Shown: in pieces, positions 19,389 to 59,313 of the stretch
Layout: each line of letters starts with the position of its first letter
Numbering within the stretch: position 1 is the stretch's first letter
Origin: Thermoanaerobaculia bacterium
Lineage (GTDB): Bacteria > Acidobacteriota > Thermoanaerobaculia > Multivoradales > J023
Direction: 5' to 3'
Assembly (NCBI GenBank): GCA_030431255.1
Contig: JAUIJL010000001.1
Location: forward strand, 62,001 to 126,000
DNA: 64,000 nt
Position numbers and translations under genes: made by a program
The notes under the pieces: generated by a model
The model's database searches: none
The model's input: the letters and a program-made list of their open reading frames with translations, nothing else
What the model was told of the DNA's origin: nothing

Positions 19389-19464
19389 AGCAGCTCTCCT
19401 CAGTTACGAGCTTCAGCGGCGGGTCGAAGACCTTTTGATTCTAGATGAGCCCTCCGGCTGAGGG

Positions 19465-45446: not shown

Positions 45447-45528
45447 TCACCTGCCGCCGAGGCGCTTGAGCCCGTTTGTCGATCTTCGGCGCGTTTCCTT
45501 GCCAACACCCAACGCAAGGAGACCCACT

Positions 45529-48456
45529 GTGAATCATTCCGTCGGCAAGCCGACCCGTTTTTTCCACTACCTGATCCTCACCTGTCTGACCTTGACGCTG
45601 AGCAGCGGCGCCGCCTTTGGCGCCTTAACCCTGGTGACCGAGGTCAATCCGGACCCGGCCCAGCCGAATGAAATGCTCGATGTGCAGCTCACGGTAGCGT
45701 CCACCAGCACCACTGGAACCCTCACCTTGAGGGTGTTGTGGCCGAATGAGATCGATCAATTTCCGGTCACCACCGGGGGTGGAAGCTGCCCGGGCAGCTG
45801 TGACACCGGCGAGTATTTGACCTGGAATCTGGGCACCCTCGGACCCAACGCCAGCATCACCGTGAGCTTCAATGAGCACGTGGAGTCTTTCGCCGCCGAC
45901 GGAACTTTCATGCTCGAGATCGATTTGCTCGAAGGCGGCTCCGTGGACCAATCGGTGTCCGTGCCGGTGGAGGTGCAGGCCGATTCGCCCTTAGAAATCT
46001 TTGTCGACCCACTGGCGGATCCAGTGGCCGCCGGTGACACCTTCGAATACGAAATCGTCTACGGCAATCGATCGGCGTCGGTGGCACAGGACGGCGAGCT
46101 GGCCTTTCCGGTGCCTACCGGCACCCAATTTATGTCTGCAACCGGCGGCGGCACGTTTTCCGGCGGCACCGTGACCTGGGATTTGGGGCCGGTGCCCGCC
46201 GGGGACGGCGGTCGCGAGCGGGTCAAAGTCTCGGTCAACGCCCTGGCGACCGGCACGCCCCTGGTGGTCGATGCCGCGACCATCAGCGGGGAGCTGGACT
46301 TCCAGCCGAAGGAAGCCCGGGCGACTGCGGTCAGCCGGATAGGCACCAGCGACCTGGACCTGGCTTTGGAGCTCAATCCGGATCCACCCGCCGCCGACGA
46401 GATGCTCGACGGCCAGATTTCGGTCCACAACGGCGGCGGCTCGGCGACGGGCAGCTTGACCCTGAGGGTCTTGTGGCCGAATGAGATCGACCAATTTCCG
46501 GAGACCACCGATGGCGGAAGCTGTCCCGGCAGCTGCGATACCGGTGAATATTTGGTTTGGAATCTGGGCGTGCTCGGCCCAGGGGTCACCCGCATCGTGA
46601 GCTTCAATGAGCATGCCGAGAGCTTCTTGGAAAACGGTCAGCTGATTCCCGTGGAGGTGGAGCTGTTGGAAGCGGGTTTGCCGAGCCGCAACATCAGCCA
46701 TACCGCGCGCACCAAGACCGGCTCGCCCTTTGAGGTCTACGTGGATCCCCTGAGCGACCCGGTGATCGCCGGCGAGAAGTTGGTGTACGAGGTGATCTAC
46801 GGCAATACCGGCAGCGACGCCGCTGACGACACCGTCTTGAGCTTTCCCGTTCCCGTGGGTAGCTCCTTCCTGTCCGCCACCGGCTCCGGCGTCCACGCCG
46901 GCGGCATGGTGACCTGGGACCTCGGCAGCTTGGCTCCGGGTGCCGGCGGGCACGAACGGGTGACGGTCGTCGTCGGCTCGCCGGCCGCTTCAGGGCTTTT
47001 AGTGGTGGATTCGGTGGTGATCTCGGGCACGGCTGCCTTCCTGAGCCGCAAGAGCCGGTCCATGGCGGTGAGCCGAGTGGGCGTCGGGGAGCTCGAGCTG
47101 GCGTTGGAGATCGGCCCCGATCCAGCGGCGGCGTCGCAGCTGCTCGACGGTCAGATCACGGTCGGCAATCCCACCGCTTCGGTCACCGGCGATTTGGTCC
47201 TCAGGGTCTTGTGGCCGAATGAGATCGATCAATTTCCCGAGGCCACCAGCTCCGGCTCTTGCCCGGGCAGCTGCGATACCGGTGAGTATTTGGAGTGGAA
47301 TCTCGGCCTGCTCGGACCGGGCACCAGCCACACCGTGAGCTTCAACGAGCACGCGGAGTCGTTCTTGGTCGAGGGCCAGCTGATTCCCGTGGAGGTGGAG
47401 CTCTTGGAAGGCGGCTTGCCGGCCCGCACCGTCAGCCGGACCGTGCGCACGCGCACCGATTCTCCCCTCGCCGTGTTGGTGGATCCGTCGGTGGACCCGG
47501 TGGCGCCTTCGGGCACGGTGACCTACGACATCGTTTACGGCAACAACGGCAGCAACAGCGCCGACAACACGGTGATGAGCTTCCCGCTGCCTGCGGGTAG
47601 CCAATTGCTGAGCACCACGGGCACTGCCAATGCCGGGGGAAGCTCGGTGTCGTGGAATCTCGGAGCGTTGGCGCCCAACAGCGGAGGCTTGGAGCAGGTG
47701 ACGGTGCAAATCGATCCCTTGGCCTCCGGCAGCCTGCTGACGGTCGACACCGTCGAGCTGTCGGGCGAGGTGGGCTTCCAATCGAGAAGCGCCCGCGCCC
47801 GAGCGGTCAGCCGGGTGGCGAGCCAGGATCTGGGTCTGACCATGGACCTCAATCCCAATCCGGTGCTGGCCGGCGGGCTCTTGGACGTCGACTTGATGGT
47901 CGAGAATCCCGCCGGCGGCGGCCCCTCCGGCAGCTTGACCCTCCGCGTGCTCTGGCCCCACGAAATCGATCAATTTCCCACCACCACCGGCGGTGGCTCA
48001 TGCCCGGGCAGCTGCGATTCCGGCGAGTATCTAACTTGGGATCTCGGCGTCCTCGGGGCGGGGGCCAGTGTGTCGGTGGATTTCAACGAAAACGCCGAAT
48101 CGTTCTTGAATCAAGGCACCTTGATTCCGGTAGAGGTCGAGCTGCTCGAAGCGGGGCGATCCGCCCGCACCGTCAGCACCACGGCCCTGGTCCATCCGAC
48201 GTCCGACAGCGACAGCGACGGCATCGCCGACGTGCTCGACCCCGACGACGACAACGACCAAATGCCCGATTGGTGGGAGACGTTTTACGGCCTGAATCCG
48301 AACAACGCCGGGGACGCGGGTCTGGATCCCGACATGGACGGTCTCACCAACCTCGAGGAATTCCAAGCGGGCACCAACCCCAACGTCTCGGACTTCATCT
48401 TCACCAACGGCTTCGAGTCCGGAAACACCAGCGCTTGGTCGCTGACTGTGCCGTGA
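45529..48456 (+). CDS. Secreted protein of four long repeats with TSP3-like tail
   Basis: 975 aa from GTG 45529, fixed by AAGGAG (45515-45520). Signal peptide about 12-36 (S-S-G-A-A-F-G-A). Four repeats follow, the first three about 245 residues each and the fourth shorter. Each half resembles a DUF11/CARDB-type beta-sandwich. A conserved core reads [13 protein letters not shown] then [12 protein letters not shown]; the Cys pair probably makes a disulphide. A Ca2+-binding TSP3-like segment ([18 protein letters not shown]) and an EF-hand-like stretch precede the tail [11 protein letters not shown]. It looks like a surface or biofilm-type structural protein. Function unknown. Confidence 0.8.
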
Positions 48457-48969: not shown

Positions 48970-49545
48970 TTACTCCTCCCCTTGGTGGATGGCTTCGAGC
49001 TCCACGCCCAAGCCGTCCGCCAGCCGGTTGACGAAGGCGTAGTAGGACGCGACTTGGCAGATGTCGAGCACGGCGTTGTCGTCGAAACCGACGGATTTGA
49101 GGGCGTCGACATCTTCCTTTTGCATCGACCACGGCTCAAGGGTCAGCTTGGAAACGTAGTCGAGCATGGCTCGATCGGCCGGGTTGAGCTCGAGCCGGCG
49201 GTAGTCGTCGAGCAGGTGTTGGACCCCGTCCTCGGTCAGGTGGGGATTGGAAGGCTGTTCCGCGATCAAGCGACGAAGACCCGCCGCGTGATGGGTCATT
49301 CAGTAGTGGCAATGGTTGGCGGTCGATACGGTGACCGCGATCATTTCCCGTTGGATGCGGGAGAGCGGTGAGCGGCCGCGCATCAGGGTGGTGTAGAGAC
49401 TGAAATGTCCCTCCATGGAGCGGGGGTTGAGGCTGTGGATCTTGCCGATATTGTCCACGCCGCCCCAGGGCTCCTGATACCGCTCGTAGAGCTTCGCCAG
49501 CTTTCCCTGTGCGTCTTCCTCGTCGATCATGTGAATCCAAGCCAT
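48970..49545 (-). CDS. AhpD-like peroxidase-related selenoprotein (CxxU), UGA read through at codon 82
   Basis: 191 aa including one predicted selenocysteine. AAAGGAG precedes ATG 49545. Codons 1-81 run to TGA at 49302-49300 and continue in the same frame to 48970. The junction reads A-N-H-C79-H-Y-U82-M-T-H-H; the peroxidase-related/CMD (AhpD-like) family has C-x-Y-C-x-x-H-H here. After the UGA the family pattern continues without a break: L-D-Y-V-S-K-L-T, D-V-D-A-L-K-S-V-G-F-D-D, and Y-A-F-V-N-R-L-A-D-G-L-G-V. A hairpin 3' of the UGA has SECIS geometry. Known AhpD-fold enzymes reduce peroxides or disulphides through this CxxC pair. Alternative: a nonsense-mutated gene, unlikely given intact sequence on both sides. 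SelB/SelC are not in the window. Confidence 0.85.
49265..49302 (-). promoter_or_regulatory. Predicted bacterial SECIS element
   Basis: Directly after the UGA (U = 1), bases 16-21 (GCGGCG) pair with 28-33 (CGUCGC) around the loop GGUCUU. Bases 11-14 pair with 35-38 below a single C-U mismatch. The loop G23-U24, needed by SelB in E. coli fdhF, is at the identical position, 18 nt of spacer lying before GGUC in both. Confidence 0.8.
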
Positions 49546-49778
49546 GGGGCTCTCCTTTGGGTCGGTCTTCCTTGCGGTCGGGGCTCAAGATCTCGATTTT
49601 GTCCGAAAACCGACGGATTTCTCCAACAAGCCCCGACTCTCCGAGCTCATTCGGCCTCAGGGGATGGGGGAGATCATTGGGAGAAGCGGCAGATGTGTTA
49701 GAGTTTTCGGATTCCGAAAGAAGGCCCCCGGCCGCCGTGGAAGGTGTTGGCCGGCTCAGACCCCTCCCCGAGGTGCCG

Positions 49779-50639
49779 ATGTCCCGCATCGATCAATTCG
49801 AGTCCGTTTTCAAGGCGGCCTCGCGCACTAGCTTCGAATATCGTCCGCAAAAGTTGAATAGGGTCCTGCTGGTCAGCGACCTGCCGGAAAAGGACGCCTG
49901 GCTCTATGCGGCCGGGATCAAGCGATTCCTGGCTTCCATCGATCCGGAGCAAGAGATCGAGTGGACCTCCGCGGCCGAGGATCGTGGACGTCGGGTCGGT
50001 GACCTCTTAGAGGTGGTGGAGCAGGAGCGCCCGGATTTGATCTGCACCTATCGCAGCCTCTACAGCGAAGGTTGGCGCTGGCCGTTCAGCTTGGGCGAGC
50101 ATTTGGACGTGTTGACCCAGGCGACCACCACGCCGGTGATGGTGATGCCCCGGCCCGATTCCGACTACTGGCAACGGGAGACTTTGGACACCCGCTCGGT
50201 GATCGCCATGACCGACCACCTCGACGGCGACGAGGCCCTGGTGCGCTGGTCGGTGAGCTGCACCGCTCCGGGGGGCGTCTTACGTCTGGTGCATGTGGAG
50301 GACGACAAGACGTTCCGGCGCTACGTGGAGGAGGTGATCGGTAAGATTCCCGAGATCGATACCGACCGCGCCCGAGAGCTGATCGCTCGCCAGCTGCTGA
50401 AGGATCCCGCTGAGTATATTGAGACCGTCTCCACCGGCTTGGCCGAAGCCGGGGTCGAGATCCACATCGAGAAAGTGGTGGAATTCGGTAGCCGTCTGGA
50501 TCGGGTCAAGCAGTGGGTGGAGGAGAGCAAAGCCGACCTGCTGGTGGTGGAAACCAAGGACGACGACCAATTGGCCATGCACGGGCTGACCTATCCGATG
50601 GCGGTGGAGCTGCGGTCGGTACCGCTGCTGATGATTTGA
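49779..50639 (+). CDS. Universal-stress-protein-like (tandem UspA) protein
   Basis: 286 aa from ATG 49779 with CGAGGTG upstream; the open frame extends 5' but without any ribosome site and over the AhpD-like promoter. Two alpha/beta halves: the first begins N-R-V-L-L-V-S-D-L-P (about 27-125), and the second begins R-S-V-I-A-M-T-D-H-L (about 138-286), ending D-L-L-V-V-E-T-K then S-V-P-L-L-M-I, the usual last Usp strand. The ATP-binding G-x2-G-x9-G is not evident, so it is a non-nucleotide or divergent type. It is 18 bp before a permease gene and probably regulates or serves that transporter, as Usp partners of NhaD/SLC transporters do. Confidence 0.7.
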   Translation: MSRIDQFESVFKAASRTSFEYRPQKLNRVLLVSDLPEKDAWLYAAGIKRFLASIDPEQEIEWTSAAEDRGRRVGDLLEVVEQERPDLICTYRSLYSEGWRWPFSLGEHLDVLTQATTTPVMVMPRPDSDYWQRETLDTRSVIAMTDHLDGDEALVRWSVSCTAPGGVLRLVHVEDDKTFRRYVEEVIGKIPEIDTDRARELIARQLLKDPAEYIETVSTGLAEAGVEIHIEKVVEFGSRLDRVKQWVEESKADLLVVETKDDDQLAMHGLTYPMAVELRSVPLLMI

Positions 50640-50657
50640 AGAGCTGATGAAACGGGC

Positions 50658-52118
50658 ATGATGGTATCCAACCTATTCACATCTCTAGTCGCTCTTTCCG
50701 CCGATTTCATGACCGGCTCGGGCGGCGGAGAAGCGGCCAAGGCCGCCGGCCACAGTCACCAAGTCGCCACCGAGACCACCCTCCTTTTTGCCGGCCTTCT
50801 GGTCGCGATGATCCTGTGCCTGGCTTTGGAAGAGAAGCTGCACGCCAAGAAATCGGTGATCGTCGGTCTCTTCGCCGTGGTTTGCCTATTCGTGGGTGAT
50901 GCCTTTCACCTGCTGCCCCTGGGGCCGATCGTCAACGCTTTCGGCGAGCAGCTCCATGTGCCGGTCTACATCCCGGCCATCGATTGGGGGGTGATCGCGA
51001 TCATCCTCGGCTCGAGCCTCTTCGTCGACATCACCTCCCGCTCGGGTCTCTTCACCTGGATCGCCATCAAGCTCACCAAGGGGTCCGGTGGTGATCCCCT
51101 CAAGCTGCTGTGGGCCTACGGCCTCATGACGGTGGTCTTCTCAGCGGTGCTCAACAACGTCACCGCGATGATCATCGTCGGCTCCTTGACCGCGGTCTCT
51201 CTCGATAAATTGGGCCGCAACCGACAGCTCTTAGGGTTTTTGATGGTCGAAGGCCTGTTGACCAACATCGGTGGCCTGCTGACCCTGATCAGCTCCGTGC
51301 CCAACATCATCGTGGGGCAAACCGCGGGCATCAGCTTCGTGCGTTTCTTCGTGGTGGCGTCGCCGTTTGTGGCGGTGGCGACGGTGGTGACCCTGCTGAT
51401 GGGCGCGCGTCTTTTCGGTATTCGCCGTTTGGATTCTGAGGAAGAGAAGGCGGAGGCCGCCCGATTGGTGGCCGGCTTCGACGAAAACGACGGCATCGAA
51501 AGCCGTGGCTTCTTCGTCTTCGGTGCAGTGATGACCCTGCTCTTTATCCTGGCTATCGCCATGACCTCGATCACGCCGGTACTGCAGGATCTAGGCATGG
51601 GGTACGTGGCCATGGCCTTCGCGGCGATCATGTTGATTCGCTACAAGGCCGTGGCCGACAAATTTTACGAAGCATTGGATTGGGATTTGCTGGCGTTTTT
51701 CGCCGGTCTCTTTGTGGTCATCAACGTCATGGAGCACGCCCAAGTGTTGGCGTTGATCGGCTCGGGCCTAGAGCTGATCATCGGCTTGGGTGACGTCGCC
51801 GGGCCGGGTGCCGTGCTCTTGTCGTCGGCATTCTTCAGCTCGGTCACGGACAATATTCCCTTGGCCGCCATGTTGGCCAAAATTCTGGCCGGCTTAGGCA
51901 CGGCGTCCGATTCGCCCCTCTGGTGGGCGGTGATTTTCGGCGCCAACTTGGGCGGCAACCTGACCCCGATCGGCTCGGCATCGACCCTCGTGGCGGTGAC
52001 CATCATGCATAAACACAAGCTATCTATGTCGTTTGGCGGATTTATCGCCAAAGCGTTGCCCTACGCGGCGGTGCAGATTGTGTTGGCTGTGGCCTACGTG
52101 TTGATTTTTCTGAGATGA
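50658..52118 (+). CDS. NhaD/ArsB-type ion transporter
   Basis: 486 aa with about 11-12 membrane helices. Family motifs: W-G-V-I-A-I-I-L-G-S-S-L-F-V-D-I-T-S-R-S-G-L-F, A-V-L-N-N-V-T-A-M-I-I-V-G, L-I-S-S-V-P-N-I-I-V-G, then in the second half V-T-D-N-I-P-L-A-A-M and A-N-L-G-G-N-L-T-P-I-G-S-A-S. This matches the ion-transporter superfamily of NhaD Na+/H+ antiporters, ArsB and SLC13/P-protein. A His-containing N-terminal loop (G-H-S-H-Q) may face the periplasm. It is probably a cation/proton or anion transporter; the ion is not determined. Co-transcribed with the Usp-like gene. Confidence 0.85.
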   Translation: MMVSNLFTSLVALSADFMTGSGGGEAAKAAGHSHQVATETTLLFAGLLVAMILCLALEEKLHAKKSVIVGLFAVVCLFVGDAFHLLPLGPIVNAFGEQLHVPVYIPAIDWGVIAIILGSSLFVDITSRSGLFTWIAIKLTKGSGGDPLKLLWAYGLMTVVFSAVLNNVTAMIIVGSLTAVSLDKLGRNRQLLGFLMVEGLLTNIGGLLTLISSVPNIIVGQTAGISFVRFFVVASPFVAVATVVTLLMGARLFGIRRLDSEEEKAEAARLVAGFDENDGIESRGFFVFGAVMTLLFILAIAMTSITPVLQDLGMGYVAMAFAAIMLIRYKAVADKFYEALDWDLLAFFAGLFVVINVMEHAQVLALIGSGLELIIGLGDVAGPGAVLLSSAFFSSVTDNIPLAAMLAKILAGLGTASDSPLWWAVIFGANLGGNLTPIGSASTLVAVTIMHKHKLSMSFGGFIAKALPYAAVQIVLAVAYVLIFLR

Positions 52119-52392: not shown

Positions 52393-55300
52393 GTGACGTC
52401 TCATTTTCGCTTCGTTCTTTCACTGCTTCTCATCGGCTCGTCATTCATTTGGCCCGCGACCACCGAAGCCTGGATTCTCAACGAGGTCCAAGCCGACCCC
52501 GACGCCACCAACGGCGACGCCAACGGAGACGGCACCTCCAGCACCACCCAAGACGAATTCGTCGAGATCTACAACGACACCGGCGCCGCGGTCGACATCT
52601 CCGGCTGGACCTTGGCCGACGGCGCCCAGGTGCGGCACACCTTCCCCATGGGCACGGTGGTGGCGGACCAATGCGCGATTGTCGTCTTCGGGGGTGGCAC
52701 GCCCACGGGCATTTTCGGCAACGCCATCGTGCAAACCGCGTCCACCGGTAATTTGGGCCTCAACAACGGCGGCGATGACGTCATCCTGAACGACGGTGGG
52801 TCGGACGTGCTGAACGAGACCTATCCCAGTGCCGGCAATAACCAGAGCATTACCCTGGATCCCGACCTCACGGGTTTGAGCTACGTCGACCACACGGGCG
52901 CCACCGGCTCCGGCGGCACGCGTTTCTCGCCGGGCACACTGATCAACGGCACGGCTTTCGCCGGCTGCACCCCGCCGCCCCCGCCGCCGATCCAGTTGTT
53001 GTTGACCGAGATCGCCGTCACCCCCACAGCCGGCGAGATGGTGGAGATCCACAATCCCACGCCCTTGCCCATCGATTTGACGGATGTCTACCTGACCGAC
53101 GCCACGTTCGCCGGCGGCTCCACCTACTACTACAACATCGTCACCGGCATGAACGCCGGCGGTGGTGGTTTTGCCGACTTCCTGGCCCGTTTCCCCACGG
53201 GCGCCATGATCGCCCCGGGCGAATACCAAACCGTGGCTTTGAACGGCTCCGACAATTTCATGACCACCTACGGCGTCCTGCCCACCTACGAGCTCTATGA
53301 GGACGCCATGGCCGCCGACGCCGTGCCCGACATGCTCGAAGGCCTGCCCGGCTCGATCAACGATCAAGGCGGTTTGTCCGACGGTGGCGAGGTGGCGATT
53401 CTCTTCACCTGGGACGGCATGTCCGACTTGGTGCAAGACATCGACTACGCCATTTGGGGTGATACCGCCGAGGCCGTCGACAAAACCGGCGTGATGATCG
53501 ATGGTCCCGACGGCGACGCCACCGATTCCACCTACGCGGCGGACACGGCCATCGGCTCCCAGGTGTTGATCACCAACTCGACCCACGCGGGCGGCTCGAC
53601 TTGGCAGCGCATCGACCTCGCCGAGGGCACCGAGACCCAAGCGGGCGGCAACGGCACTGCCGGTTCCGACGAGACCTCCGAAAACTTGAACCAGACTTGG
53701 GCCGAGATCGCCGGGCCGACCCCCGGCAATCCCTCGCCGCCCCAGTGGATCCTGAATGAGGTCCAGGCCGATCCCGACGCGGCCCTCGGCGACGCCAACG
53801 GTGACGGCTCCTCGAGCACCACCGAGGACGAGTTCGTGGAGATCTACAACAACACGGGCGCGCCTATGGACATCTCCGGCTGGACCTTGGCGGACGGCGC
53901 GAGCACCCGCCACACCTTCCCGGCGGGCACGGTGGTGCCGGCGGATTGCGCGGTGGTGGTCTTCGGCGGGGGATCGCCCACGGGCGCCTTCGGCAATGCC
54001 GTGGTGCAGACCGCGTCCACGGGGGGGTTGGGGCTCAATAACGGTGGCGACACGGTGACCCTCAACAACGGCTCCAGCGACGTGCTGTCGTTGATGTATC
54101 CCAACGCCGGCAACAACCAGAGCATCACCCTCGATCCCGACCTCACGGGTTTGAGCTACGTCGACCACACCGGCGCCACGGGCTCCGGCGGCACGCGTTT
54201 CTCCCCGGGCACTTTGATCGACGGCACGGATTTTTCGGGCTGCATGGCGCCGCCCGCTCCGAGCGTCGAGCTGCTGCTCACCGAGATCGTGATCGTGCCC
54301 GACACCGGTGAGTTCATCGAGATCTACAACCCGTCGGCCATGGCGGTGGATCTCACCGACGTCTACCTGACCGACGCCACCTTCTCCGGCGGCGGCGTGT
54401 ACTACTACAACCTGCCCACGGGAACGGACGCGGGAGGTGGCGGCTTCGGCGACTTCTTCGCCCGCTTCCCGACCGGCGCCATGATCTCCCCGGGTGAATA
54501 CCAAACCGTTGCGCTCAACGGCTCGGACGACTTCATGGCCGCCTACGGCTCGTTGCCCGACTACGAGCTCTACGAAGACGGTGCCGCCGACGCCGTGCCC
54601 GACATGCTCGAAGCCTTGCCCGGCTCGATCAACGGTCAAGGCAGCTTGACCGACAACAGCGGCGAGGTGGTGATCCTCTTCACCTGGGACGGCATGTCGG
54701 ACTTGGTGGAAGACCTGGACTACGTGGTTTGGGGCGACAAGGTGGAGGCGGTCGACAAAACCGGCATCTCCATCGACGGTCCCGACGGCGACGGCACGGC
54801 CACCGCCTACCAGAACGATACGCCCATCGCCACCCAAATCGTGATCTCCACCACCAGCCATGCCTCCGGTAGCGCCTGGCAGCGGGTGGACTTCGCCGAG
54901 GGGGCCGAGGATCAATTCAACGGCAACGGGGCCGGGGGCTCCGACGAGACCTCCGAGAATCTGAACATGACCTGGGTGGAGACCATGGTGCCCACGCCGG
55001 GTAGTCCCGGAAGCTCCGTGTGGGTGCTGAACGAGGTCCACGCCGACCCGAGCAACAACGCCAACGACGGCGACGCCAACGGCGACGGCACCGGTGATTT
55101 CTCCCAGGACGAATTCGTCGAGATCGTCAACAACAGTCTCGTGGCGCTCGACATCAGCGGCTGGACCCTGGCGGACGGCGCTCAGGTACGCCACACCTTC
55201 CCCGCGGGCACGGTGGTGCCGGCGGGATGCAACATCGTGGTCTTCGGTGGCGGCACGCCCACGGGCACCTTCGGCGACGCCGTGGTGCAGGTGGCGTCCA

Positions 55301-58300
55301 CCGGCAGCCTGGGGCTCAATAACGGCGGCGACTCGGTGATTCTGAACGACGGCGTGGCCGACGCGTTGAACGTCACCTATCCGGCGGCCGGCAACAATCA
55401 GAGCATCACCCTCGATCCCGACATCACCGGCGGCAGCTACGTCGACCACAGCGGCGCCACGGGTTCCGGCGGCACGTTGTTCTCACCCGGCACCATGATC
55501 GACGGCAGCCAATTCGCCGGCTGCGCGCCGCCCATGGCCAGCGGTTGGATCATCAACGAGATGCACGCCGATCCGAGCAACAACGGCAATGACGGCGACG
55601 CCAACGGTGACGGCTCCAACGATTTCAGCCAAGACGAATTCGTCGAGATCGTCAACGCCACGGGCGGGGCGGTGGACGTCAGCGGTTGGACCCTGGCCGA
55701 CGGCGCCCAAACGCGTCACACCTTCCCCGTAGGCACCGTCATTCCCGACGGCTGCGGTGTAGTGATCTTCGGCGGCGGCACGCCCACGGGCAGCTTCGGC
55801 AATATGTTGGTGCAGACCGCGTCGTCCGGCGCCCTGGGCTTGAACAACGGTGGCGACTCCGTGAGCCTCAACGACGGCGTGATGGACGTGGCGCTCGAAA
55901 GCTACGGCGCCGAAGGGGGCAGCAACCAGAGCTTGACCCGCGATCCGGATCTGTTGGGCGCCTTCGTGCAACACAGCGGAGCCACCGGCTCCGGCGGCGC
56001 GTTGTTCTCGCCCGGCACCACGATCGACGGCAGCCGATTCGTCGGCTGTCCCACCGACTGGGTGATCAACGAAATCCATGCCGACCCGAGCAACAACGGC
56101 AACGACGGCGACGCCAACGGCGACGGCACCAACGACTTCGGCCAAGACGAATTCGTCGAAATCCTGAATCGCAGCGGCGCCACCGTCGACATCGGCGGTT
56201 GGACCTTGGCGGACGGCGCCCTGGTACGCCATACCTTCCCGCCCGGCACTCTGGTCGAAAACGGCTGCGGCATCCTGGTCTTCGGCGGCGGCATGCCCAC
56301 CGGTGACTTCGGCGGCATGCCCCAGCAGACCGCGTCCACGGGCACGTTGGGTCTCACCAACGGTGGCGACACGGTGACCTTGAACGATGGCGGCATGGAC
56401 CAGGCATCGGTGACCTACGGCGCCGAGGGAGGCAACAACCAAAGCCTGACCCGCGATCCCGACATCACCGGACCGTTCGTCGAGCACACCACGGCCACGG
56501 GTGCCATGGGCGCCCTTTTCTCTCCGGGTCAAACGGCTTCGGGTGGATTCTTCACCGGCTGTCCGATACCGCCCCAACCGGCGGAGATCTACGAGATCCA
56601 GGGCAACGGCGATACCTCACCGCTCAACACCCTGCCGGTGATCACCACCGGCAATGTGGTGACCGCGGTGGGTCCGGAGGGTTTCTTCATCCAGACCCCG
56701 GACGCGTCGACCGATGGCGATATAGAAACGTCCGACGGTATCTACGTCTTCACCATGAGCGCGCCGGCGGTCTCCGTGGGCGACACGGTGGAAGTCACCG
56801 GCACGGTGGAGGAGTTCTTCGGCTTCACCCAAATTTCCGGCTCGCCCATCGTCATGGTGACTCCGTTTGGCGCGCCGGTGTCGGAGAGCCTCTTCGCGGG
56901 CTTGGATTACCCCGCGGCTCAGGCGCTCATCGAAGAGAACGGCTGGCGCAAATCCGCGCTGCCGCCGAAGATTCGGGTGCTGCGAAAGGCCGAAGAGCAA
57001 GAGGGCCAGAGGAATCAAAGGGGCGGCTTGCTGCCCACCGCGATCGTCTTCGACGCCACGTTGCCGTCGCCCAACCAGCCCCAGAGCGCCAACGAATACG
57101 AGCGCTTCGAAGGTATGCGCATCTCGGTGCCCAGCGGCATCATCTGCAGCGGCAATCAGGGCTTCGGATCCGATCCCATCGCCGAGGTCTTCGCCACCTC
57201 CGGTACCAGCCGGTGCTTCCGTGAGCCGGGTATCGAGTATCCGGGCATCATGGGCCTTCCGGTGTGGGACGGCAATCCCGAGATCTTCGAGATCGACCCC
57301 AACGCCCTCGGCGGGCCGAATACCCTGATTCCCGGTGGCTCCACCTTCTCGGCGGAAGGCGTGCTCGGTTTCGAGTTCGGCGGATACGAGATCTTCCCGA
57401 CGATGTTGAACATCAATCCGGTGACCTTGCCGCGGCCGGTCCGCGCCAAGAACGCCGGCGAGATGACCATCGCCTCGTTGAATCTCTTCCGGCTCTTCGA
57501 CGATGTGGACGATCCGTCGTCCACCAGCTCCACCGGCGGCCCGCGGGACGACACTGTCGTGTCCACCGCCGAATGGGATCGTCGTCGGGTGAAATTCGCC
57601 GACTACATCGTCAACGTGCTCGGCTCCCCGGACATCCTGGGGGTTCAAGAGGCCGAGAGCCTGACGGTGTTGCAAGCCCTGGCCACCGAGATCCAAAGCG
57701 TGGACGGCTCGGTGACCTACACGGCCTACTTGGAGGAGGGCAACGATCCCGGCACCATCGACACGGGCTTCTTGGTTCGCGCCACGGTGACCGTCGATTC
57801 GGTGACCCAAATCAACCGCGACTCCACCATGGTCTTCAGCCCGGGTAGCGTCTTGCACGACCGTCCGCCGCTGCTGCTCGAAGGCTCCTACAACGCCAAC
57901 GGCGCGCCGTTCCCGATCGCGGTCATGGTCAACCACATCCGATCCCTGATCGGCGTGGACGACCCCGGCCCGAGCGGTGACTTCCCGCGCAACAAGCGTT
58001 TGGAGCAAGCCCAGGACGTTGCCCAGCTGCTCCAGGACTTCCAGACCACGAATCCGACGGTGCCGCTGGTGGTGGTGGGCGACTTCAACGCCTTCCAATT
58101 CACCGATGGCTTCGTCGACGTCACGGGTCAGATGCGCGGTGTGGTGAATCCGGCGGACAATTTGCTGTCCGGCCCGGATTTGGTCACCCCGGATCTCACC
58201 AATCTGGCGACCACCGTCGCGGCGGAGGAGCAATACTCCTTCAACTTCGACGGCTCGGCCCAAATCCTGGACCACGCCCTGTCGACCACCGCCACGGACG

Positions 58301-59313
58301 TCTTCTTCCGCGAATTCCAATACGCCCGCGGCAATGCCGACGCGGCCGAGGAATTCATCGAGGACGACATGACGCCGGTGCGTTCGTCGGATCACGACGG
58401 CTTCGCGGTCTTCCTGATGACCGATCGTGACGCCGACGGCGAGCCCGACGACACCGACAATTGTCCCGACACCCCCAATGCCGACCAAGCGGACGGCGAC
58501 CTGGACGGCATCGGCGACGTCTGCGACAACTGCGCGGCGACGCCGAACGCCGACCAAGCGGATGGTGACCTGGACGGCGTCGGCGACGTCTGTGACAACT
58601 GTGTGGCGACGCCGAACGCCGACCAAGCGGACGGTGATCTGGACGGTGTCGGCGATGTCTGCGACAACTGCGTGGCGACGCCGAACGCCGACCAAGCGGA
58701 CGGTGACATGGACGGCTTCGGCGATGTCTGCGACAACTGTCCGGTGACCCCGAACGCGGATCAGGCGGACGGTGACCTGGACGGCGTCGGTGACGTCTGC
58801 GACAACTGCGTCGCCACCCCGAATATGGACCAAGCCAACGGCGACGCCGACAGCTTGGGTGACGTCTGTGACAACTGTCCGATGGACACCAACGAAGACC
58901 AAGCCGACATGGACATGGACGGCATCGGTGATGTTTGCGATCTGTGCGACGATCAGGAAGGACCCATGTTCACGGTGCTCTCCCAGACCGACCTGCTGAT
59001 CGTGGTGCAGATCGACGATTGCGCCGGCATCCTGAGCGTGGATTTAGACCTAGGCTCGGAGAATATGGCGATCAACGTGGTCAGCGGCATGCCCGGAGAT
59101 GCTCAGTGGATCGTAGAGATCACACCGATCAATCCGGACCTGCCGGCCGTCGGCAGCATCACCGCCAACGGCACCAACCTGTCCAACACGTTACAGATCG
59201 ACTTCCAAGGCACCGTCATCGGCATTCCGACCCTGGACTCCATGGGTCTGATGTTGATGATCCTGCTGCTCTTGGCGGCGGCCTGGAGGATGCGAGCTCG
59301 CCTCGCGGCCTGA
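52393..59313 (+). CDS. Giant surface protein: lamin-tail domains, ExeM-like nuclease, TSP3 repeats, IPTL-CTERM
   Basis: 2306 aa from GTG 52393 behind AGGAGA (52380-52385). Signal peptide 1-25. Lamin-tail domains of form W-[IV]-[LI]-N-E-x-x-A-D-P start near 52471, 53745, 55021, 55544 and 56059; two longer LTD-like units (L-L-L-T-E-I) start near 52993 and 54268. An OB-like segment (about 56570-56880) precedes an endonuclease/exonuclease/phosphatase domain (57463-58420) with V-Q-E-A-E-S, V-V-V-G-D-F-N-A-F and S-S-D-H-D-G, like ExeM/NucH extracellular DNases. Seven TSP3 Ca2+ repeats (D-N-C-x-x-T-P-N-A-D-Q-A-D-G-D) occupy 58427-58950. The end is I-P-T-L-D-S-M-G, a hydrophobic helix and R-x-R, an exosortase-type IPTL-CTERM tail. 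Likely role: surface-bound DNase for nutrient or biofilm DNA. Confidence 0.9.
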   Translation: MTSHFRFVLSLLLIGSSFIWPATTEAWILNEVQADPDATNGDANGDGTSSTTQDEFVEIYNDTGAAVDISGWTLADGAQVRHTFPMGTVVADQCAIVVFGGGTPTGIFGNAIVQTASTGNLGLNNGGDDVILNDGGSDVLNETYPSAGNNQSITLDPDLTGLSYVDHTGATGSGGTRFSPGTLINGTAFAGCTPPPPPPIQLLLTEIAVTPTAGEMVEIHNPTPLPIDLTDVYLTDATFAGGSTYYYNIVTGMNAGGGGFADFLARFPTGAMIAPGEYQTVALNGSDNFMTTYGVLPTYELYEDAMAADAVPDMLEGLPGSINDQGGLSDGGEVAILFTWDGMSDLVQDIDYAIWGDTAEAVDKTGVMIDGPDGDATDSTYAADTAIGSQVLITNSTHAGGSTWQRIDLAEGTETQAGGNGTAGSDETSENLNQTWAEIAGPTPGNPSPPQWILNEVQADPDAALGDANGDGSSSTTEDEFVEIYNNTGAPMDISGWTLADGASTRHTFPAGTVVPADCAVVVFGGGSPTGAFGNAVVQTASTGGLGLNNGGDTVTLNNGSSDVLSLMYPNAGNNQSITLDPDLTGLSYVDHTGATGSGGTRFSPGTLIDGTDFSGCMAPPAPSVELLLTEIVIVPDTGEFIEIYNPSAMAVDLTDVYLTDATFSGGGVYYYNLPTGTDAGGGGFGDFFARFPTGAMISPGEYQTVALNGSDDFMAAYGSLPDYELYEDGAADAVPDMLEALPGSINGQGSLTDNSGEVVILFTWDGMSDLVEDLDYVVWGDKVEAVDKTGISIDGPDGDGTATAYQNDTPIATQIVISTTSHASGSAWQRVDFAEGAEDQFNGNGAGGSDETSENLNMTWVETMVPTPGSPGSSVWVLNEVHADPSNNANDGDANGDGTGDFSQDEFVEIVNNSLVALDISGWTLADGAQVRHTFPAGTVVPAGCNIVVFGGGTPTGTFGDAVVQVASTGSLGLNNGGDSVILNDGVADALNVTYPAAGNNQSITLDPDITGGSYVDHSGATGSGGTLFSPGTMIDGSQFAGCAPPMASGWIINEMHADPSNNGNDGDANGDGSNDFSQDEFVEIVNATGGAVDVSGWTLADGAQTRHTFPVGTVIPDGCGVVIFGGGTPTGSFGNMLVQTASSGALGLNNGGDSVSLNDGVMDVALESYGAEGGSNQSLTRDPDLLGAFVQHSGATGSGGALFSPGTTIDGSRFVGCPTDWVINEIHADPSNNGNDGDANGDGTNDFGQDEFVEILNRSGATVDIGGWTLADGALVRHTFPPGTLVENGCGILVFGGGMPTGDFGGMPQQTASTGTLGLTNGGDTVTLNDGGMDQASVTYGAEGGNNQSLTRDPDITGPFVEHTTATGAMGALFSPGQTASGGFFTGCPIPPQPAEIYEIQGNGDTSPLNTLPVITTGNVVTAVGPEGFFIQTPDASTDGDIETSDGIYVFTMSAPAVSVGDTVEVTGTVEEFFGFTQISGSPIVMVTPFGAPVSESLFAGLDYPAAQALIEENGWRKSALPPKIRVLRKAEEQEGQRNQRGGLLPTAIVFDATLPSPNQPQSANEYERFEGMRISVPSGIICSGNQGFGSDPIAEVFATSGTSRCFREPGIEYPGIMGLPVWDGNPEIFEIDPNALGGPNTLIPGGSTFSAEGVLGFEFGGYEIFPTMLNINPVTLPRPVRAKNAGEMTIASLNLFRLFDDVDDPSSTSSTGGPRDDTVVSTAEWDRRRVKFADYIVNVLGSPDILGVQEAESLTVLQALATEIQSVDGSVTYTAYLEEGNDPGTIDTGFLVRATVTVDSVTQINRDSTMVFSPGSVLHDRPPLLLEGSYNANGAPFPIAVMVNHIRSLIGVDDPGPSGDFPRNKRLEQAQDVAQLLQDFQTTNPTVPLVVVGDFNAFQFTDGFVDVTGQMRGVVNPADNLLSGPDLVTPDLTNLATTVAAEEQYSFNFDGSAQILDHALSTTATDVFFREFQYARGNADAAEEFIEDDMTPVRSSDHDGFAVFLMTDRDADGEPDDTDNCPDTPNADQADGDLDGIGDVCDNCAATPNADQADGDLDGVGDVCDNCVATPNADQADGDLDGVGDVCDNCVATPNADQADGDMDGFGDVCDNCPVTPNADQADGDLDGVGDVCDNCVATPNMDQANGDADSLGDVCDNCPMDTNEDQADMDMDGIGDVCDLCDDQEGPMFTVLSQTDLLIVVQIDDCAGILSVDLDLGSENMAINVVSGMPGDAQWIVEITPINPDLPAVGSITANGTNLSNTLQIDFQGTVIGIPTLDSMGLMLMILLLLAAAWRMRARLAA

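Follow-up and report, generated by a model that had tools for sequence, protein, structure and literature searches.

An AhpD-like, peroxidase-related bacterial gene split by one in-frame UGA very probably encodes a selenoprotein of a known family

AhpD-like proteins with selenocysteine (Sec) at the second position of a CxxC redox motif have been described in selenoprotein surveys since 2005. Passages of the 2005 Sargasso Sea survey describe 27 AhpD-like COG2128 selenoproteins with a CXXU motif (PMC1088965), a section of the GOS survey counts 299 AhpD-like 1 (COG2128) CxxU sequences (PMC2398784), and an entry in a 2026 review, which cites the Sargasso Sea work, reads 'AhpD-like protein, TIGR01926, CxxU' and gives the accession MCB9421940.1 (PMC13188914). 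An excerpt of PMC9312934 places the AhpD-like protein of that review under COG2128. In full-text searches of the literature, selenoprotein and TIGR01926 occurred together only in PMC13188914, and no text was found that combined 'peroxidase-related enzyme' with selenocysteine.

The gene described here lies on the minus strand of a 64,000-nucleotide stretch of Thermoanaerobaculia DNA, referred to below as the window. Because TIGR01926 CxxU selenoproteins are already catalogued, it adds a member to a known family, and the original prediction, which took no Sec protein to be known in the peroxidase-related subgroup, is corrected on this point by the review's entry. The catalogued family (TIGR01926 / COG2128) and the window protein have in common the NCBIfam family, the CxxU motif, and the replacement of the second Cys by Sec; judged by family and motif as these excerpts describe them, there is no difference in kind. 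The gene is real and conserved, very likely a selenoprotein, and ordinary in kind, one more representative of a catalogued antioxidant-type bacterial selenoprotein family. What this locus and its relatives add is modest: Sec predominates in the subfamily, and there are two Sec paralogue types with differently placed hairpins, types that the literature passages cited above do not mention. A gene that the standard code splits in two is very probably a single selenoprotein, one of a large subfamily in which Sec is predominant over many little-studied phyla, with no new kind of system involved.

The features on which the reading frame rests are as follows.

48970..49545, minus strand: predicted AhpD-like (TIGR01926) selenoprotein gene of 191 residues, called from a frame running through one TGA, TIGR01926, Pfam CMD, PDB relatives, and the predicted fold
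49300..49302, minus strand: in-frame TGA, predicted Sec codon of residue 82 at the second CxxC position, called from the frame and from the codon kept in relatives
49552..49556, minus strand: AGGAG ribosome-binding site 6 nt upstream of the ATG, read from the sequence

An 81-amino-acid open reading frame (49545-49300) stops at the TGA at 49302-49300, and a second of 109 amino acids (49299-48970) continues in the same frame. With TGA read as U, positions 49545-48970 yield 191 residues without any further stop, and the active-site motif becomes C79-H-Y-U82-M-T-H85-H86, with the TGA at the second Cys position. These readings agree with what had been proposed from the sequence: that the two frames form one 191-residue protein split by a single TGA, that this codon falls exactly on the second Cys of CxxCxxHH, that a good ribosome site precedes the gene (AGGAG at 49556-49552, 6 nt from the ATG), and that the window gene carries no other lesion in the form of a second in-frame stop.

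Two adjoining frames separated by a TGA mean little by themselves, because a count over both strands of the window under loose criteria gives 135 in-frame TGAs that have a possible start and are flanked on either side by 50 codons or more. Such interruptions being common in a GC-rich window, the codon could be a true nonsense mutation in a former CxxC gene, a pseudogene reading that also draws on the lack of a close orthologue in the one same-genus genome. The TGA at 49302-49300 nonetheless stands out from the others, because homology spans it (residues 2-181) and because relatives carry the same TGA. When the read-through protein was searched against profiles with Sec written as Cys, it matched TIGR01926 ('peroxidase-related enzyme') across the TGA over residues 2-181, at 125.2 bits against a curated cut-off of 81.8, and Pfam CMD at 41.7 bits. 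The proposed alignment with TIGR01926-like proteins thus gave a score above the cut-off, and the claim that conservation is intact on both sides of the TGA holds, with the motif in alignment A1 unbroken. The window protein is 67-39% identical to 21 hand-chosen A1 relatives, the motif being intact either side of the codon, which argues against decay, as does the absence of any other stop.

Other family models fit less well. No match to TIGR00777, the model for AhpD proper, was found at E 0.001. NF041238 (AhpD_rel_CFYUT), in whose name CFYUT resembles the CHYU of the window protein, has a homologous part, but the window protein scores 61.8 bits, below the cut-off of 175, and covers only positions 151-338 of the 357 in the model. 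Sequence searches identified 3c1l, 2pfx, 6k40, 2oyo, 2prr, and 2ouw as solved relatives. A structure model built with 33 relatives (mean pLDDT 93.0, pTM 0.89) has 6k40, 3c1l, 2pfx, 2prr, and 2oyo as its best fold matches; the predicted fold is all-helical and AhpD-like, with CHYU as its CxxC-type active site. These five have the fold and a similar length in common with the window protein, and structures of peroxidase-related AhpD-like proteins are 23-31% identical to it. At the second motif position 3c1l and 2pfx have Cys in two alignments, whereas the window protein is predicted to have Sec. More distant fold matches include the debrominase Bmp8 (6ohi and 6ohj, E about 4e-6) and sestrin-2 (5t0n and 5dj4).

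Further evidence on the codon comes from relatives, surveyed in a close-relative set of 59 genomes, the source genome included, and in a phylum sample of 297 genomes. Forty of the 59 related genomes had a match at E <= 0.001. Counted by hand, TGA was present in 49 of the 52 matches at E <= 1e-20 in these genomes and absent from 3; among weaker matches (E 1e-20 to 1e-3) it was present in 9 of 27 and absent from 18. In the phylum sample, 76 of the 85 matches at E <= 1e-20 contained TGA and 9 did not. For matches of either set that were not fetched as loci, these counts come from the column of stops and take in a TGA anywhere within the match. Relatives broken beyond this codon would point to a pseudogene; what was found is that 46 of the 49 TGA matches have no other in-frame stop, while three also have a TAG: L033 and L037, in both of which it falls at the very end of the match, and G018:C185.

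Where the codon itself was read, it was TGA at the CxxU position in 71 of 76 loci (L021-L096, window included), with Cys in L051-L053, L055, and L094, and in 80 of 80 further loci (L097-L176), 9 of which are copies of loci in the first group, so that 71 are additional. The loci read are the best matches and no random sample, L051-L053 and L055 having been chosen for their lack of TGA, and L097-L176 are the best 80 of 573 confirmed stretches, obtained with a search pattern that leaves out the Sec/Cys position. Those 573 stretches came from a scan of database contigs with an alignment; the same scan with the single protein found no relative. As deposited, and with misassignment possible, the titles of L097-L176 name Acidobacteria, Chloroflexi, Gemmatimonadetes, Planctomycetes, Marinimicrobia, KSB1, SAR324, Calditrichaeota, and others. 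A codon held as TGA in 71/76 and 80/80 loci (9 shared), in records of many phyla, is hard to reconcile with a nonsense mutation, and together with the complete Sec machinery described below it makes a pseudogene very unlikely.

Homologues that lack the TGA mostly have the conventional residue: Cys stands at this position in 14 of the 15 that were read, and Ser in one (L179). The nine non-TGA matches of the phylum sample comprise 8 with Cys, two of which (L182 and L184) lack the first Cys, and the one with Ser. In L179 (G134:C68) the motif reads CTYS, with Ser at the Sec/Cys position. Two other loci, L104 and L131, have a second TGA in the read-through stretch, which could precede the true start or could itself encode Sec. 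A point against the Sec reading is that G001, the sole same-genus genome, lacks a close orthologue; its homologues are an AH-type Sec paralogue (type defined below) with 40% identity and two Cys forms, and G002, of the same family, has one weak match only, without TGA.

The codon that follows the window TGA happens to be ATG, and the resulting TGAATG could allow termination and restart, giving two polypeptides with the second beginning right after the TGA. Relatives have CTG, CTC, ATT, ATC, GTG, ACG, ACC, CGG, and others after their TGA, so a restart is not conserved. It would also leave Cys79 and His86 on different polypeptides, split where one active-site helix begins (H80-96 in the model), and we regard this arrangement as highly improbable. 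Equally hard to maintain is a reading of UGA as an amino acid other than Sec through a variant code or a suppressor tRNA, for which no supporting point was found. UGA serves as the terminal stop in relatives L082, L084, L085, and L086, long window genes are normal under table 11, and the codon occupies the place of a redox Cys and is found together with selA.

The source genome (10.19 Mb, 98.83% complete) encodes the full set of Sec genes: selA at 458.7 bits (cut-off 267.9), a full-length selB at 358.7 bits (cut-off 242.25), the tRNA-Sec gene selC at 72.7 (gathering score 47), and selD at 359.6 bits (cut-off 125). The original prediction had named these four genes as a check on its claim and an absence of selB or selC as grounds for doubting it; all four are present, and such an absence is ruled out. 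The selD gene (L019, G000:C48:70921-71844) has its own in-frame TGA, in CGUAAK, and is a selenoprotein gene too; CGUAAK in selD is a well-known Sec site.

Across genomes, the TGA copies go together with selA. A selA match was found in 57 of the 59 close relatives (54 above the cut-off) and in 193 of the 297 phylum-sample genomes. In the latter, 60 of 65 genomes with a TGA copy had selA, compared to 133 of 232 others (Fisher p 2.3e-8, with genomes taken as independent of kinship). The five genomes that have a TGA copy and no selA match (G114, G137, G160, G192, and G310) are 72-91% complete. Among the seven genomes with non-TGA copies only, selA was present in five and absent in two. With the same TGA in relatives and all the sel genes in the genome, the claim of a selenoprotein stands, and we infer with near certainty that the UGA at 49302-49300 specifies Sec82 and that the gene encodes a bacterial AhpD-like, peroxidase-related (TIGR01926, CMD superfamily) selenoprotein.

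Bacterial SECIS elements, according to rules in a passage of the 2026 review (PMC13188914), have a 3-9 nt loop, a 4-16 bp stem, a G in the first two loop positions, a distance of 16-37 nt from the UGA, and an energy of <= -7.5 kcal/mol. One hairpin downstream of the window TGA fits them.

49265..49292, minus strand: candidate bSECIS hairpin, +8 to +35 after the TGA, -12.5 kcal/mol

Its loop, GUCU, lies at +20 to +23 (49280-49277), a spacing of 19 nt. Taken alone, the window hairpin gives a weak signal: compared with synonymous recodings it does not reach significance (p 0.135 to 0.30), z against dinucleotide shuffles ranges from -0.09 to -0.66, and 69 of 200 synonymous recodings of the window sequence also conform to the bSECIS rules. 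At the level of the family the signal is strong. We distinguished two paralogue types by their motifs, an HH type (CHYUxxHH), to which the window motif conforms, and an AH type (CHYUTxAHxxDLR; L044, L049, L056, L065, and other loci). In a set of 118 distinct HH-type sequences, from which duplicates and sequences with N were left out, 116 fold better between +10 and +30 than their respective synonymous recodings do on average (mean z -1.83; p <= 0.05 in 56/118), and 113 have GG in the apical loop or closing pair.

The stems themselves were named by hand from folds of the same sequences, a choice that favours them over slid versions in the comparisons that follow. For the HH type, 80.9% of cells are paired in the named stem, against 27.3-51.8% in slid versions; for the AH type, the figures are 96.9% and 26.7-49.7%. 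In the HH stem, 6 cells out of 708 show two-sided changes, confined to 2 of the 6 pairs, and 5 of the 6 slid versions have more such cells; covariation proper therefore lends the HH stem no support, which comes instead from pairing and codon choice. In the AH-type stem, 2 of the 7 pairs contribute 14 two-sided cells, as opposed to 0-2 when slid. The rules as coded here agreed with 39 of 48 HH, 19 of 23 AH, 35 of 79 L097-L176-set, and 2 of 5 Cys sequences (L055 was left out of the SECIS rows), and with 47 of 144 HH and 31 of 69 AH recodings.

The AH-type hairpin loop lies about 8 nt further downstream than that of the HH type. Both types coexist in several genomes, for example G003, G006, G016, and G025; in the source genome, the search turned up the window gene and, besides it, just a distant homologue with Cys. 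The window protein also has an 8-residue insertion after the CHYU helix (residues 97-104, 49234-49257) that is absent from HH-type A1 relatives, and AH-type rows have part of it. A quick, midpoint-rooted tree of 155 proteins (147 Sec and 8 Cys, some Cys branches being very long), built without rows under 150 residues, L055, L097, L098, and L133, and also without L179, L181, and L183-L186, places the window protein in a 51-row all-Sec group with an SH-aLRT of 95. On this quick tree the Sec/Cys label needs four changes, and the starred branches force at least one change. One could read all of this jointly: Sec would be a standing feature, perhaps ancestral across many phyla, the Cys forms rare and either derived or distant, the two Sec paralogue types set apart by their hairpin registers, and Sec retained for chemistry that Cys does poorly. 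As a whole we think this combination improbable. If true, it would point to a chemistry that favours Sec, for instance a reductive dehalogenation, or catalysis when oxidant stress is strong.

What the protein does can be approached through the active-site relays of AhpD proteins. Passages of PMC3141380 give Glu118, Cys130, His132, Cys133, and His137 for Mycobacterium tuberculosis AhpD and Glu36, Cys48, Tyr50, Cys51, and His55 for PA0269. The same spacing in the window protein picks out Glu67, Cys79, Tyr81, Sec82, and His86, and three of these codons complete the feature list.

49345..49347, minus strand: Glu67 codon, by spacing the counterpart of Glu118 in M. tuberculosis AhpD
49309..49311, minus strand: Cys79 codon, counterpart of Cys130 and predicted partner of Sec82
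49288..49290, minus strand: His86 codon, counterpart of His137

All five columns are invariant in alignments A1 and A2, with Sec written as Cys, and Glu and His occur at the relay spacings in 156 of 156 rows (L021-L176). As far as those passages describe M. tuberculosis AhpD (TIGR00777), its pair of active-site helices, which carries Glu, Cys, His, Cys, and His, has a counterpart in the window protein, which differs in having Sec for Cys133 and Tyr81 where AhpD has His132.

With Sec in place of Cys133, the protein is likely to be a Sec-based reductase of peroxides or disulfides. SelB, bound to the hairpin just downstream of the UGA, would deliver Sec-tRNA(Sec), so that the UGA at 49302-49300 is read as Sec82. 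This residue would stand where CxxC has its second Cys and where M. tuberculosis AhpD has Cys133. The Glu67/Tyr81/His86 relay would then activate the selenolate, which could attack a peroxide or another oxidised substrate; Cys79 would resolve the product as a selenenylsulfide, and a dithiol donor would presumably reduce it. Peroxide is the most likely substrate. A selenoprotein with a different reaction, either dehalogenation like Bmp8 or disulfide/adaptor reduction like AhpD for AhpC, has a smaller though still appreciable chance of being correct, given that the AhpD fold spans several chemistries and that the fold search returned Bmp8 and sestrin-2. The nearest structures, by their titles, are peroxidase-related, antioxidant, or alkyl hydroperoxide reductase proteins, and the relay residues are those given for AhpD peroxidase activity in a passage of PMC3141380; both favour peroxide reduction, although a title is no proof of activity.

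The surroundings of the gene were also inspected. Four neighbouring window ORFs, a USP-like one, a CitMHS-type transporter, an M20 peptidase, and one that is sigma-factor-like by eye (no Pfam match), gave no hit by tblastn at 1e-6 across loci L022-L186, a result that says little about synteny because the locus flanks are short. A promoter scan of the gene found none, and one terminator-like site was at chance level. Another plus-strand frame, split at 19459, was dropped as antisense to normal ORFs. At 49509-52118 the divergent neighbours are the universal-stress-protein-like ORF and the CitMHS-type transporter; the GTG start listed for the former, which makes it overlap the selenoprotein gene, is probably placed too far upstream. 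Further along, 52393-59313 encodes a 2306-residue protein with six lamin-tail stretches, an endonuclease/exonuclease/phosphatase domain, and thrombospondin type 3 repeats, and 45466-48456 encodes a 996-residue protein in whose translation long internal repeats are visible by eye.
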